Shown one piece after another: positions 1-5,802 of a stretch of DNA of 5,819 nt; positions within the stretch are counted from its first letter, which is position 1, and every line of letters starts with the position of its first letter. The notes beneath the pieces are model-generated. The model saw nothing but the letters and a program-made list of their open reading frames with translations, had not been told where the DNA came from and searched no databases. Made by a program: the position numbers and the translations under genes. The DNA is from Candidatus Zhuqueibacterota bacterium. Its GTDB lineage: Bacteria > SM23-31. Location: contig JADFON010000139.1 in assembly GCA_022562855.1 (NCBI GenBank), forward strand, positions 1 through 5,819, written 5' to 3'.

Positions 1-3000
1 TTCTTTGTCAATTTCGCCGGGTCGATTACCAAGCCGCTAACCCCGGACGCGGCGGGGCGCTGCCGTCTCTATCGCAACCTCGGCGAGATGCGCTTCGTCG
101 ATGTGACGGACAGTGCGGGACTCGGACTGATCGCCTTCGCCATGGCAGCGGCGTGGGGTGATTACGACAATGACGGCGACCTGGATATAGTGGTCGTAGG
201 TCTTGATAATCTTGGTAATTCTGTGGCGGAGATATGGAAGTTCGAAGGCGGAGATTATGTGCTTGATACAAACCAGGACATGACCGGGCTACGGTATGCA
301 ACAGCGTCATGGGGCGACTACAACAAGGACGGTTATCTTGACCTGGTTACGACAGGAATGGACCGGTTTGGCGATTCGCGGACTATTCTTTATAAAAATA
401 CAAAAACAGGATTGAGAAACCTCCTTATTGCAGAAACTCTTCAGCCATTGCTGAACGTGTCCAAAGGCGACGCCGAGTTTGGGGATTTTGACGGCGACGG
501 TGACCTTGACCTTGTTTTGTCCGGTCTTGACGCAAGCGGATTTCCAAACGCCGCCTTGTATAAAAACGACCCTGTCGGTTTTTTCAGCTATGACAATAGC
601 AATTCTGAAATAATAAAAAAATTGTCCAATGGTTCGCTGGCTTGGATAGACGTAGATGCGGACGGCGATCTTGACCTGATGCAGACGGGATTAAATGCCA
701 GGTGGGAATCGGAAACCCATCTATATGAAAATGAACCCGTCGGACGTCTTCGCGGTGACCTTTTATCCGCGATACAGGATGTATCCGGACCGTTTGCAAT
801 AGCAGACCTCGATAATGATGGCGATCTTGATATCGCGTTGGGCGGAAAAGACAAATTTTCTAACCTCTATGGAAATTTGTTGGAATGGAGCGGCGGCTTT
901 ACCCAAAATCTGCTGCAGTTTACAAGTTTAAGAAACGGGTCGATGGCATTGGGAGATTTTAATTCGGACGGAAAGCTTGATCTCCTTGTCAGCGGTGTGA
1001 ATGAAACCCACGATTTCGAGACACTTTTATTTAGAAATACCTCCGCTGGTGCGTCGGTTACACCTGGCCCGCCTTCCGCTCTTAATCAGGCTGTTGTCAC
1101 TAATAACCGAATTATATTAACCTGGGACAGGGGCTCGGATGCTCAGACTCCTTCCAATCTCTTAACATATAATGTTCGGATTGGTACGCAGTTGGATGAG
1201 AGCCAGATTTTGTCCGGTGTGAGCCCGGTAATAAACGGCAACGTCGGCAACGACCTGAGCCTGATTATGCATACACAGTTAGCTGAAGGCACCTATACCT
1301 GGAGTGTTCAAACTGTCAACGCACAATTGGAACGGTCTGCATGGTCGCAGGAAGATATTTTCCGTGTGGAGCAATTTGTCAGTTCTCTTCAAAATATTGC
1401 AGGTTTCCGGTTTTCGTCCTCTGCCTGGGGAGATTACGACAATGACGGCGACCCCGATTTTGTCATAGCAGGTACGGATGTTAACGGAGATAACAGGACG
1501 TTGTTTTACATAAATAATGATGGTCTCCTTTCGGAAGACCGGAATGTAAACAACAACATGATACAATTTAATAACGGTGATTTTTCCTGGGGCGACTACG
1601 ATAATGACGGCGACCTCGATCTTGCCTACACCGGATTCTTTATCCGGGAAAGCGCCACGTCCGGAATTTATGTAAATGATAACGGTGTGCTGACCGAAAT
1701 AAAAGAACCGTTTACTCCTGTCGGATTTGCTTCTCTTGACTGGGGCGATTACGATAACGACGGCGACCTCGATCTTGCTGTAATGGGTAAGACTTCTGCG
1801 GGACCATTTGTGACAAAAATTTATAATAACGATAAAGGGATACTTACCGAAGATACAGGTCAGTCAATAATGGGATATGCCAACGGTTCGCTGAAGTGGG
1901 TTGATTATGACAATGATGGCGATCTCGACCTGTCGTTAACCGGTCAAACCGCCAACGGCGATAACAGAACGAGAATCTACAAAAACGATCCGGTTGGCGT
2001 CTTGACCGAGGATTCGAATCTTTCCGATTTACCCTCGTACCAGTCAAGCGATATAATCTGGCTTGATTTGGATGACGACGGCGATCTCGATATGATTATC
2101 ACAGGGTTTAACGACAATACTTCCAATGTCAAAACTGCGGTATTCGTTAATAATCCTACAGGGACATTAACCGAAGATGCCGCGCTTTCCGCCAACTTGA
2201 AGGGCGTTGTGGGCGGTTCGTTGACAGTAGGAGATTATGACAACGACGGTGATCCCGATCTTGTGGTAAGCGGTTTTGATCTATTAAATCCTATTTTAAA
2301 GGTTTACAAAAACAACGCGACAAGTTTTAGCGAAGAATTTTTGACGATTATTGAAGATCGCGGAGTTGATTTCAGCACCATATCGCTGATTGATATCGAT
2401 GGCGACGGCGATCTCGAACTTGTAACGACCGGAAGAAGAAAAGTGGATGAAACAACGTTTATATCAACTTCGATAGTATACGATAATGTAAACGCAAGAA
2501 GTAATCCGAATACTGCTCCGCAGGCTGTTTCAGGTCTTATTTCTGCTGTATCCGGGGGGACGGCTGCGCTTTCGTGGAATCCGGCGGTTGATTTCCCAAT
2601 CGGCGATCCACTAAGGGATTTTGTTACTTACCAAATAAGGATCGGCACGTCTCCGGGTGGCAATGAAATAATATCCGGTGTTCAAACATCAAACATCGGC
2701 ACTTTTGGTTCTCTCACGAGCAGGGTAATGTTGGGATTGAAAAGTAACGACTATTACTGGAGTATTCGGTCTGTCGATAACGGTCTTGCCGCTTCGGAAT
2801 GGTCTCTGGAAGAAACCTTTAGAGTCGACACAGACGCTCCCACCGTTAGTCCCGAATTTGTTACAATTACACCCGATTCGGTTGGAATAGGAACTGCAAC
2901 TATATTTATAGTGATAACGGAAAATTTTGATCTGGATCTCCAAATACTTCCGGATGTGTCTGTTACACTGTCGAATGCATCGGAAGTACCGGTTTCAATA

Positions 3001-4218
3001 CTTTCATATTCAGGCAATACCTGGATTGGTGAGTTTGATGTGCTGGAGTCATATCCAAGCGGTTCTGCGATGCTGAGTGTGTCCGGTGTAACCGATGCGG
3101 TCGGCAACGTCATGACCCCTGCAAACGGGATCAAGGAATTCCTCATTGATACCGACCGTCCCAAGGTGATAGTCACCAGTCCGCCATTTATCGAGGGAGG
3201 CGTTCAGGAAGGTGTGGGTAGAAACATCACACTTACAGCTACATTTGGCGAAACGATCAATCCGGTTTCGGTGGGCGATGACGTTTTGAAGCTGTTTCTT
3301 GGGTCGCAGGAAGTTACGGCGGCATCGAACGTACAGATCAGCAGCGATCTGCTGAGTATATCTGCATTATATTCGAATCTTGAATCAGAAACCGTTTACA
3401 GGGCAGTAGTAGTCTCAAAAGTACGCGATATAGTCGGTAATAGCATGGAGGGTGATTTTAGCTGGGAATTTAAAACTGCTCGAATAGTCTCGGCTCAATC
3501 GGGCGGCAGCGTATCAAATGCCGACGGAACAGTGACAATTTATTTCTCACCAAATGCGATTTCTGCTGATGCTGAAATTTCGATAGAGAAAGCAACGCCG
3601 ACTTCTTTCCCGTCTTCGATAAATTTTATTGATGTTGCCTATAGTATCGGTCCAGCCGGCGGATTGAACCTGAACAAACCGGCACAATTGAGAATCGGGT
3701 ATGACGAGGAGAACCTTCTTCTCAAATACCAATTCAAACCGGAATTTGACGAAAACAAGATTGTGATTTATCAACAGCAAAACGGAAATCCAGCAGCATG
3801 GGACAAAATAGGCGGCACAGTCAACACTTCCGATAATACAGTTACGGCGTCGATAAATAGTCTCGGAACTTTTGCTCTTTTTGAGGATTTGGGCGTGGGC
3901 ACGGGCGCTGACGGAATTTTTGATATTTCGTTTTCACCAAGAGTGTTTTCGCCGAAGGGAACAACCGTACTCCGCAAGGAAACAGGCGTTAATTTCACTT
4001 TGGGAAATGCCGCAGAGGTAACGATTTTGATATTTAATACATCCGGGCGGCTGGTGAAGAGACTGCTTGATAACGCCGCGTTAAACAGCGGCAGGCAGAC
4101 GGTCGTATGGAACGGAAGAGACGGTAATGGGAGAGTTTTGCCATCAGGTTTATATATGGTGGTGATCAAAAGCGGAAGCGGTTCCGAAATGAAAACGGTT
4201 GCTATATCCAATAAATAA
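1..4218 (+). CDS. Large multidomain FG-GAP/VCBS propeller surface protein with FlgD-like C-terminal tail (5' partial)
   Basis: The frame is open from the first base (it reads FFVNFAG at the edge), so the ATG at 88 is internal and the true start lies upstream. 1405 codons are visible and the stop is TAA at 4216-4218. Domains by visible codon: propeller loops about 54-327, Fn3-like 355-458, propeller loops about 478-806, Fn3-like 837-942, two Ig-like modules 943-1054 and 1054-1160, ZU5-like 1161-1298, FlgD/T9SS-like tail about 1303-1405. The thirteen DxDxDGxxD loops are known in this family to bind calcium. The role is probably extracellular adhesion or ligand binding; no catalytic motif is visible and the ligand is unknown. 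The protein lacks cysteine except one codon at 61-63, inside an atypical GC-rich 5' segment that may not belong to this gene. It sits 48 bases upstream of a second propeller gene in the same orientation. The general class is secure; the function is not. Confidence 0.93.
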   Translation, partial: FFVNFAGSITKPLTPDAAGRCRLYRNLGEMRFVDVTDSAGLGLIAFAMAAAWGDYDNDGDLDIVVVGLDNLGNSVAEIWKFEGGDYVLDTNQDMTGLRYATASWGDYNKDGYLDLVTTGMDRFGDSRTILYKNTKTGLRNLLIAETLQPLLNVSKGDAEFGDFDGDGDLDLVLSGLDASGFPNAALYKNDPVGFFSYDNSNSEIIKKLSNGSLAWIDVDADGDLDLMQTGLNARWESETHLYENEPVGRLRGDLLSAIQDVSGPFAIADLDNDGDLDIALGGKDKFSNLYGNLLEWSGGFTQNLLQFTSLRNGSMALGDFNSDGKLDLLVSGVNETHDFETLLFRNTSAGASVTPGPPSALNQAVVTNNRIILTWDRGSDAQTPSNLLTYNVRIGTQLDESQILSGVSPVINGNVGNDLSLIMHTQLAEGTYTWSVQTVNAQLERSAWSQEDIFRVEQFVSSLQNIAGFRFSSSAWGDYDNDGDPDFVIAGTDVNGDNRTLFYINNDGLLSEDRNVNNNMIQFNNGDFSWGDYDNDGDLDLAYTGFFIRESATSGIYVNDNGVLTEIKEPFTPVGFASLDWGDYDNDGDLDLAVMGKTSAGPFVTKIYNNDKGILTEDTGQSIMGYANGSLKWVDYDNDGDLDLSLTGQTANGDNRTRIYKNDPVGVLTEDSNLSDLPSYQSSDIIWLDLDDDGDLDMIITGFNDNTSNVKTAVFVNNPTGTLTEDAALSANLKGVVGGSLTVGDYDNDGDPDLVVSGFDLLNPILKVYKNNATSFSEEFLTIIEDRGVDFSTISLIDIDGDGDLELVTTGRRKVDETTFISTSIVYDNVNARSNPNTAPQAVSGLISAVSGGTAALSWNPAVDFPIGDPLRDFVTYQIRIGTSPGGNEIISGVQTSNIGTFGSLTSRVMLGLKSNDYYWSIRSVDNGLAASEWSLEETFRVDTDAPTVSPEFVTITPDSVGIGTATIFIVITENFDLDLQILPDVSVTLSNASEVPVSILSYSGNTWIGEFDVLESYPSGSAMLSVSGVTDAVGNVMTPANGIKEFLIDTDRPKVIVTSPPFIEGGVQEGVGRNITLTATFGETINPVSVGDDVLKLFLGSQEVTAASNVQISSDLLSISALYSNLESETVYRAVVVSKVRDIVGNSMEGDFSWEFKTARIVSAQSGGSVSNADGTVTIYFSPNAISADAEISIEKATPTSFPSSINFIDVAYSIGPAGGLNLNKPAQLRIGYDEENLLLKYQFKPEFDENKIVIYQQQNGNPAAWDKIGGTVNTSDNTVTASINSLGTFALFEDLGVGTGADGIFDISFSPRVFSPKGTTVLRKETGVNFTLGNAAEVTILIFNTSGRLVKRLLDNAALNSGRQTVVWNGRDGNGRVLPSGLYMVVIKSGSGSEMKTVAISNK
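160..186 (+). repeat. 27-base exact direct repeat of a calcium-loop coding segment (second copy 5437-5463)
   Basis: Both copies encode DYDNDGDLD in frame and match at all 27 bases; the flanking base on each side differs. A 22-base match to the same sequence starts at 1432. In this copy it lies exactly where the GC-rich left end meets the AT-richer remainder of the gene. Confidence 0.85.
160..1056 (+). repeat. First FG-GAP/VCBS blade array, six calcium loops visible
   Basis: DxDxDGxxD-type loops start at 160, 316, 484, 649, 805 and 955, spaced 50-56 residues apart, the usual size of an integrin-alpha-type propeller blade. Most sit in a context of aromatic or hydrophobic residue, G/I/A, D, loop, then LDL..(T/S)G. 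The second loop is DYNKDGYLD and the sixth DFNSDGKLD, both still plausible calcium ligand sets. The FFVNFAG at bases 1-21 looks like the strand that normally follows such a loop, so a seventh blade probably begins off the left edge and would complete a seven-bladed ring. That completion is inference. Confidence 0.88.
1063..1374 (+). other. Fn3-like linker module 1 in the propeller protein
   Basis: The module begins PGPPSAL, continues ILTWDRGSDAQTP and LTYNVRIGT, and ends GTYTWSVQTVN...SAWSQEDIFRV. This is the layout of the Fn3-like modules that follow VCBS propellers in FCB-group secreted proteins (LSW core, 'TYN.RIGT' strand, 'YxWSVQ' strand, 'S.WS.E..FRV' end). It separates the two blade arrays and matches the second module at 2509-2826 in order and key residues, so the two look like an old internal duplication. 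Confidence 0.75.
1432..2418 (+). repeat. Second FG-GAP/VCBS blade array, seven calcium loops
   Basis: Loops start at 1432, 1594, 1747, 1903, 2065, 2233 and 2392, spaced 51-56 residues, enough for a closed seven-bladed propeller. The usual pattern is W.DYDNDGDLDL..TG, then about 10 residues, then IY.N(D/N)..G.LTED. The third loop, DYDNDGDLD at 1747, is nearly identical in DNA to the one before it. Two loops have Pro in place of Leu (DGDPD at 1432 and 2233). The last loop ends in Glu instead of Asp (DGDLE, 2416-2418), a conservative change at the final calcium ligand. Confidence 0.92.
2509..2826 (+). other. Fn3-like linker module 2 in the propeller protein
   Basis: It begins NTAPQAVSGL, has AALSWNPAVD, VTYQIRIGTSPGGNEIISGV and YYWSIRSVDNGLAASEWS, and ends ETFRV. 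The same strands in the same order occur in the module at 1063-1374. It closes the second propeller and leads into the Ig-like stalk. Its 'RIGTSPGG' and 'YYWS..SVD' segments are closer to the usual family pattern than those in module 1. Confidence 0.78.
2827..3480 (+). other. Two bacterial Ig-like stalk modules
   Basis: The first module (2827-3162) runs from DTDAPTV to FLIDTDRP and includes 'SGVTDAVGNVMTP', the typical end of cadherin/Big-type repeats. The second (3160-3480) starts PKVIVTSPPFIEGG, has ITLTATFGETINPVSV, 'YRAVVVSKVRDIVGNSM' and ends WEFKTA, which fits the SbsA/Big_5 family ('...l..nt.Yt..v...v.D.aGN.....f.w.F.T'). Such modules usually form an extended stalk that carries a binding head away from the cell. 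The exact family assignment is from pattern only. Confidence 0.65.
3481..3894 (+). other. ZU5-like module near the C-terminus
   Basis: It contains SGGSVSNADGTVTIYFSPNA followed by ISADAEISIE. This resembles the start of ZU5 domains (GG.v...dG.v.l.iP.gAl...t.I.I). Later come 'YSIGPAGGLNLNKPAQLRI', 'WDKIGGTVNTSDNTVTASINSLGTFALF', the usual property-then-'GtFal' ending of these bacterial modules. In other bacterial surface proteins the same arrangement sits just before the C-terminal sorting or anchoring region, as here. No catalytic residue is apparent. Confidence 0.5.
3904..4215 (+). other. FlgD-Ig / T9SS-type C-terminal domain
   Basis: The segment reads FSPRVFSPKG, then VNFTLGNAAEVTILIFNTSG, RLVKRLLDNAALNSGRQTVV, WNGRDGNGRVLPSGLYMVVI and ends KTVAISNK. 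'IFNTSGRLVKRLL', 'WNGRDGNG' and 'LPSGLYMV' are hallmarks of FlgD Ig-like (PF13860-type) tails and closely resemble type IX secretion C-terminal signals of the FCB group. The position at the very end of the protein suggests it directs export across the outer membrane or attachment to the surface. Whether it is a T9SS signal depends on whether the genome encodes that system. Confidence 0.75.
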
Positions 4219-4266: not shown

Positions 4267-4341
4267 ATGAGAAATAATTTAGTTACCTACTTATTGACCG
4301 TTATTGTTACAAGCATGTCGATAACATCTAATATTTATTCT
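4267..4341 (+). other. Sec signal peptide of the ASPIC/UnbV protein
   Basis: The first residues MRNNLVTY carry one positive charge, followed by the hydrophobic run LLTVIVTSMSI and a polar end TSNIYS. The most likely cut is after Ser25, leaving Gln as the first mature residue, a common pattern in Bacteroidota exported proteins. There is no lipobox cysteine, so it is not a lipoprotein. Confidence 0.8.
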
Positions 4342-5802
4342 CAAACACAGTTTGAAGAGGTGACCTCTCAGGCAGGTGTCGTGATGAGTTTTACTTCCCG
4401 GTGGTCTACCGGTCTTGCGTGGGGAGACTATAATAATGATGGTTTGTTAGATGTTTATGTGACTTCATGGGGTCAGGCTTCTACCGGTCAAGCCCGCAAT
4501 GCACTGTACCGGAATCTTGGATTCGGATTGTTTGTAAATGTTGCCGCTGCTGAAGGGGTCGACCTTGGCGATAATAGCACTGCGGCGGTCTGGGGAGATA
4601 TGGACAACGATGGTGATCTCGACCTGTTTGTCGCAAATTTTTCCGAAGGTGATGTTATATTCAAGAATTTACTAATCGAAACCGGGTCTGCCTCTTTTGT
4701 CGATGTTACCGTTACTTCGAATTTTATTAACGAATCTGTCGGCAGGTCAAAGGCGGCAGTATGGGGAGATTACAATAATGATGGTTTCCTCGATATTTAC
4801 GTATCAAAATTCTGGGGGAAAAACGCACTGTACAGGAATAACGGCGGGTCGACATTTTCACTCGTTGACGGTGTTGTTTCCGATGTCCGGGACAGCGAGT
4901 GGGCTAACTGGGTGGATTATGATGATGACGGAGACCTCGACCTGTATGTCGTAAACCGTGAACAGGAAAACAGACTGTACATAAACAACAACGGTGAATT
5001 TTCGGTTGACCCCGGTCTTTTGAACGATACGCAGTTCGGTAGATTTTCAGTTTGGAGCGATTTTGACAATAACGGCAAGCTTGATCTTTTTGTTGGAAAT
5101 ATTGGCGCTAATTCGCTGTACCAACAAATTCTGTCCGGGGATTTCTTAGAGGTATCCGGTGCAACAGGGGTAAAAACCGCACCAAATGCATGGGATACAT
5201 GGGGCGGGACCTGGGGCGACTATGATGGAGACGGAGACCTCGACCTGGTTTTTGTGGGCGGTTTTGATGAAGTTGCTCCCTCGAGTAATTTTACCGGTAC
5301 ATTTGGAAATATTTTATTTAATAATAACGGGGGGTCTTTTACCGATGTAACTACGGCTGCCGGGCTAATACGAGGCGCTCTGAACTTCAGTACCGCTGAG
5401 GAAGTCGGAAGTTTTGCAAGCGCCGCCGCATTCGCCGATTACGACAATGACGGCGACCTGGATCTGATGATAACGAATACACACCAGAACCTCATGTATG
5501 AAAACAAAAACCCGACAAATAACTTTCTTAAAGTCTGGGTGCAGGGAAGAGGAGTCGGTTTTAATAATCGTAACGGAATTGGGTCAAAGGTGAGGATTTA
5601 TAACACAAATGCACCGGGTGTTGTAGTTGCTATGCGTGAGATTCGTTCGGGTCCGGAACCGATGTACGCACACTTCGGTTTATCGCTAAGCGAAACGTAT
5701 AATATTGAAATCTCGTTTCTAAATAACGGTTCGATCCCTGCTGATAAAGTGACTATCAGCGGAGTCAGCGTGCCGCTCGATACGGTCATAATTCAAAAAT
5801 GA
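4267..5802 (+). CDS. Secreted FG-GAP propeller protein with ASPIC/UnbV C-terminal domain (CRTAC1-like)
   Basis: Complete protein of 511 residues. The start ATG is fixed by an in-frame stop 18 bases upstream and by a good signal peptide at residues 1-25. Seven DxDxDGxxD-type loops follow, at residues 54, 111, 168, 217, 265, 318 and 391, in the pattern W.DYDNDGDLDL.V.N with 'NALYRN.G...F.DVT' between them, giving a probable seven-bladed calcium-binding propeller. Residues about 419-488 match ASPIC/UnbV: NFLKVWVQG, NRNGIGSKVRI, REIRSG, HFGLS and YNIEISFLNNG. This is the usual CRTAC1-family layout; members are extracellular and of mostly unknown function, and the best studied relatives are animal cartilage acidic proteins. 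No FlgD/T9SS tail is present, unlike the upstream gene. No cysteine is seen. It overlaps a putative next start by four bases. An enzymatic role is not suggested by any visible motif. Confidence 0.95.
   Translation: MRNNLVTYLLTVIVTSMSITSNIYSQTQFEEVTSQAGVVMSFTSRWSTGLAWGDYNNDGLLDVYVTSWGQASTGQARNALYRNLGFGLFVNVAAAEGVDLGDNSTAAVWGDMDNDGDLDLFVANFSEGDVIFKNLLIETGSASFVDVTVTSNFINESVGRSKAAVWGDYNNDGFLDIYVSKFWGKNALYRNNGGSTFSLVDGVVSDVRDSEWANWVDYDDDGDLDLYVVNREQENRLYINNNGEFSVDPGLLNDTQFGRFSVWSDFDNNGKLDLFVGNIGANSLYQQILSGDFLEVSGATGVKTAPNAWDTWGGTWGDYDGDGDLDLVFVGGFDEVAPSSNFTGTFGNILFNNNGGSFTDVTTAAGLIRGALNFSTAEEVGSFASAAAFADYDNDGDLDLMITNTHQNLMYENKNPTNNFLKVWVQGRGVGFNNRNGIGSKVRIYNTNAPGVVVAMREIRSGPEPMYAHFGLSLSETYNIEISFLNNGSIPADKVTISGVSVPLDTVIIQK
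4426..5463 (+). repeat. FG-GAP/VCBS blade array of the second protein, seven calcium loops
   Basis: Loops start at 4426, 4597, 4768, 4915, 5059, 5218 and 5437. Spacing is 57, 57, 49, 48, 53 and 73 residues; the last blade therefore holds an insertion of about 20 residues, in the segment EEVGSFASAAAF and what precedes it. Two loops have Asn in the first part (DYNNDG at 4426 and 4768) and one reads DFDNNGKLD (5059), where Asn replaces the Asp of the DG pair. Confidence 0.9.
5521..5730 (+). other. ASPIC/UnbV-like domain
   Basis: The conserved features NFLKVWVQG, NRNGIGSKVRI, a REI strand, 'HFGL' and 'I.FLNNG' appear in the right order. In typical members the segment before HFGL is G.GY.SQ; here it is RSGPEPMYA, a departure from the common form. 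It directly follows the last propeller blade, as in other CRTAC1-type proteins. About 24 residues with two beta-strand-like stretches remain after it. Confidence 0.8.

Follow-up and report, generated by a model that had tools for sequence, protein, structure and literature searches.

The window, which is the whole stretch of DNA analysed here, corresponds exactly to contig C145 (5819 bp) of a fragmented MAG (G000; 2.51 Mb in 491 contigs, completeness estimated at 79.6%), and the apparent fusion gene at its left end is almost certainly an assembly error and not a biological novelty. The contig holds sequence of two origins, with the breakpoint at a calcium loop at the contig end; the two lineages have a loop k-mer in common, and the same MAG contains at least one similar join. 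We consider it very probable that the contig is an inter-species misassembly at this shared calcium-loop k-mer. Biologically little is at stake, and the value of the case lies in quality control: FG-GAP propeller genes repeat their calcium-loop codons many times over, and such codons can lead an assembler to splice genes of different phyla in frame, the outcome being believable but false fusion proteins.

Gene layout and domain content

The contig physically begins at base 1, which places the feature at a contig terminus, a point absent from the first-pass annotation of this DNA. The features are as follows, with the evidence for each in brackets.

1-4218, + strand: ORF1, a 5'-open gene of 1405 codons (ORF reading)
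1..159, + strand: foreign segment of 53 codons from a Phycisphaerae-type FG-GAP/ASPIC protein, FFVNFAGS...RLYRN...RFVDVTDSAGLGLIAFAMAAAWG, 64% G+C (composition; end-to-end matches only to planctomycete-type proteins; synonymous codon usage; absence from orthologues)
160..186, + strand: calcium-loop segment DYDNDGDLD, the probable join (similarity hand-over; change-points at base 158 and codon 61; 160-188 exact in a Phycisphaerae-class genome)
187..4218, + strand: 5'-truncated host gene with FG-GAP blades, an Ig-like Big_5 domain and a C-terminal FlgD_ig domain (Pfam; orthologues in G003, G004 and G005)
4267..5802, + strand: ORF2, second FG-GAP gene of the host, 511 aa (Pfam; comparison with G003 and G005)
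5437..5463, + strand: exact 27-base copy of the loop segment, within ORF2 (sequence identity)

The Pfam domains of ORF1 are FG-GAP_3, FG-GAP, Big_5 and FlgD_ig; the C-terminal UnbV_ASPIC domain (PF07593) was not found in it by Pfam, and as a whole ORF1 does not belong with the UnbV_ASPIC/CRTAC1-type proteins. From about base 187 on, there is nothing unusual about the gene, which encodes an FG-GAP/FlgD_ig protein and is truncated at its 5' end.

A composition and codon-usage step at the join

The first-pass annotation had estimated about 64% G+C for bases 1-159 and about 46% for 187-420, in agreement with the measured values of 64.2% and 45.7%; the loop segment 160-186 has 51.9%, and the contig from 187 to its end has 45.5%. 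G+C stays at or below 56.6% in all other 159-base windows of the contig. Across 25 sampled sibling contigs of the MAG (169 kb, G+C 42.3%; the short contigs C1-C50, read as N, were left out), only 0.2% of 159-base windows were as GC-rich, and these lie mostly in contig-terminal segments of foreign appearance. The best position of the base-composition step, at the join, is base 158.

Codon usage changes at the same place. GC3 is 77% in codons 1-53 vs 46% in codons 63-1405, with a change-point at codon 61 that was reached by none of 2000 permutations. Using a synonymous-codon score that is independent of the protein sequence, we obtained +18.6 log units in favour of Phycisphaerae over the host for codons 1-53, a two-way contrast between a host table drawn from the contig itself and a Phycisphaerae table drawn from the homologues, which does not classify among taxa at large. 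Other 53-codon stretches of ORF1 gave a mean of -13.7 and a maximum of +4.7, and the running total of the score is highest at codon 61. The single cysteine codon remarked on earlier is codon 21, the only Cys in ORF1; ORF2 has none.

Relatives of the left part

A search of codons 1-53 against a collection of genomes from 84,980 species found 11 relatives, led by three from Phycisphaerae/Phycisphaerales MAGs, each spanning 1-53, with one Acidobacteria MAG and one Planctomycetaceae MAG next. When the 114 genomes of the best match's order were searched, 15 gave matches at E <= 1e-14, with alignments that in almost every case start at residue 1; L107, read in a wrong frame, was left out, and the others formed a homologue set of n=14. 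The Phycisphaerae FG-GAP/ASPIC homologues match codons 1-53 end to end, with best identities of 64% and 63%, which agrees with the CRTAC1/ASPIC-type assignment proposed for this side by the first-pass annotation. The proteins L099, L076 and L077 have in common with the segment the stretches FFVNFAGS, CRLYRN.G..RFEDVT...GLG and AWGDYDNDGDLD; past the loop they continue as LYVTAYG...LY.N.GDGTF, unlike the window, and L077, the one homologue checked, carries the UnbV_ASPIC domain that ORF1 lacks. In these homologues the segment stands directly after the sequence 'LPEDMGSGVA.GDYD.DG..DL', so that base 1 of the contig lies just past the previous calcium loop of the donor-type protein. No near-identical donor was found among 397 Phycisphaerae-class genomes, where the best DNA identity over the segment is 71-76%. 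A viral source for codons 1-53 was also searched for, and none was found.

Relatives of the right part

Codons 63-350 are 38-41% identical over about 300 residues to same-class genes of G003, G004 and G005, with which they have TG.D-type blades in common, the blade subtype that had been recognized on this side from the sequence. From codon 63 on, ORF1 shows both the collinear blades and the neighbouring FG-GAP gene of the same-class FG-GAP/FlgD_ig group; in G003 and G005 the orthologue is followed by a second FG-GAP gene of similar length, in the order seen in the window. Blade two of the three orthologues aligns with the first loop of the window, and upstream of it they have a signal peptide and the blade 'LPGVY.G...GD...DG..DL', whereas the window has the foreign segment, codons 1-53 being of another type. 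No RLYRN..RFVDVTDSAGLG-like sequence is present at that place in the same-class orthologues.

A search of the MAG assembly did not turn up the host gene's own 5' end, with its signal peptide and first blade. The orthologous N-terminus as query gave only generic repeat matches in the MAG, on C145 itself, and DNA polymerase I, the candidate upstream neighbour, gave no match there, an empty answer that is uninformative alone. A DNA polymerase I-like gene precedes the ORF1 orthologue in G004 and G005. In G005 the orthologue is split between two contigs (L031, G005:C74; L032, G005:C127) whose ends overlap in protein sequence, which marks the gene as hard for assemblers and counts towards an assembly join in C145. 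Past the second FG-GAP gene, a gene of about 800 aa is found in G005 (L031 5310-7688) and G003 (L029 7990-10395), resembling by eye a PorV/PQ-type outer-membrane protein; C145 ends short of its place.

Considering that ORF2 of the same genome holds related inter-blade sequences of the RLYRN/DVT type, at a lower similarity of 55% over 44 aa, the likeness of the left segment to Phycisphaerae is partly family-generic. This likeness, along with the fact that FG-GAP repeats are alike everywhere, could be taken to mean that nothing in ORF1 is foreign and that codons 1-53 are a first blade of its own, unusual in being GC-rich. We regard this reading as extremely improbable: residues 1-18 (FFVNFAGS...), which lie outside the repeat consensus, align to planctomycete-type proteins and have no alignment in the host phylum, the orthologues begin with a different N-terminus, and the codon usage and composition of codons 1-53 are far outside those of the rest of the gene.

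Hand-over at the calcium loop

The two sides of the loop have different closest relatives. In ungapped register, identities between the window and Phycisphaerae L099 fall from 32/51 ahead of the loop to 1/20 past it, and those between the window and the host orthologues rise from 0-1/8 to 5-6/16. The switch that the first-pass annotation had placed on the loop is thus borne out, since similarity to Phycisphaerae collapses right past it and similarity to the orthologues begins, next to the compositional change-points. The comparison suggested with that claim, a search for homologues that keep left and right parts in one protein, yielded no such protein: the left homologues diverge past the loop, the right homologues have another N-terminus, and the hybrid N-terminus was found in no genome searched.

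The loop itself is repeated within the contig, 160-186 being identical to 5437-5463 as reported before, and this 27-base pair is the longest exact repeat (>=20 bases) in C145. Given that about 20 calcium loops encode a near-identical peptide, the repeat is only mildly unusual alone; a 27-base repeat pair arose in about 3% of 60 synonymous resamples, and we rejected it as an independent oddity on account of this weakness. Extended to 29 bases (160-188), the loop DNA has an exact match in one Phycisphaerae-class genome, and several others of the class have similar matches at 92-95%. DNA matches of the left end to Phycisphaerae stop at 185-190, and it is one of the genomes so matched that has 160-188 exactly. 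A k-mer at the join is therefore shared by both lineages, over 27 bases in the host and 29 in a Phycisphaerae-class genome. The Dx[DN]xDG calcium blade motif is widespread (PMC3123361). As the loop is common to both sources, the breakpoint can be placed only to about 150-190.

Origin of the join

We infer that the join was made by an assembler and not in a living cell. In such a scenario, the assembler would have moved leftwards from the host propeller gene (46% G+C) through the loop k-mer (DYDNDGDLD, about 160-186) and crossed over there to the corresponding loop in a gene of another, unrelated community member, a Phycisphaerae-like bacterium (about 60% G+C). Extension would have halted about 160 bases on, at the previous calcium loop of this second gene, another likely repeat. 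Chimeric contigs formed from k-mers common to genomes are a described fault of short-read metagenome assembly (PMC7299287). Like these, C145 joins two genomes at common k-mers and has a short foreign tail at the contig end and a composition step; it differs in that the join lies in frame inside a repeat-protein gene and imitates a real fusion protein.

A join made by the assembler is much better supported than recombination, given the position at the contig end, the loop k-mer common to both lineages and other contigs of the MAG with the same type of defect. The first-pass annotation had offered a chimeric join or recombination, and it is on these same grounds that the artefactual form of its proposal is upheld. 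True recombination or horizontal transfer between phyla, by which the gene would have exchanged its own N-terminus at the common loop for the 5' portion of a propeller gene of Phycisphaerae type to give a hybrid propeller, is in our view unlikely. The ORF1 reading frame is preserved across the join with no stop codon, and the two lineages have similar DNA at the loop, a requirement for homologous recombination; however, an assembler join would be expected to keep the frame too, since the loop is read in one and the same frame in both genes. Moreover, the foreign piece amounts to only about 160-186 bases and terminates at the contig end, no sign of amelioration is evident in its codon usage or G+C, no searched genome has the hybrid, and the MAG contains other contigs of the same kind. 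For C145, approximately bases 1-186 should be trimmed.

Similar contigs in the same MAG

Contig C120 carries an apparent, independent in-frame false fusion (L066, G000:C120, 4969-6393) in which a short-chain dehydrogenase (about residues 1-183) is cut inside its domain and runs in frame into DprA (206-412). The G+C jumps there from 44% to 60% at about 5474, and in 5 other genomes of the phylum the two halves occur only as separate ORFs. With at least this one further apparent false fusion, fusion proteins and contig ends of the bin are untrustworthy without reads. In 20 contigs of G003 we found no GC-rich contig ends.

Two further ends of the MAG's contigs are GC-rich. The end of C90 (L094, G000:C90, 1-1659; 57% vs 42%) bears a COX15/CtaA gene; an ORF of 480 aa crosses the G+C step there, and only the right part of this ORF has weak relatives in the phylum. 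This end looks like another join. The end of C56 (L087, G000:C56, 8172-8685; 60% vs 38%), with a 155-aa ORF that has no Pfam match, looks similar in kind to the C120 join.
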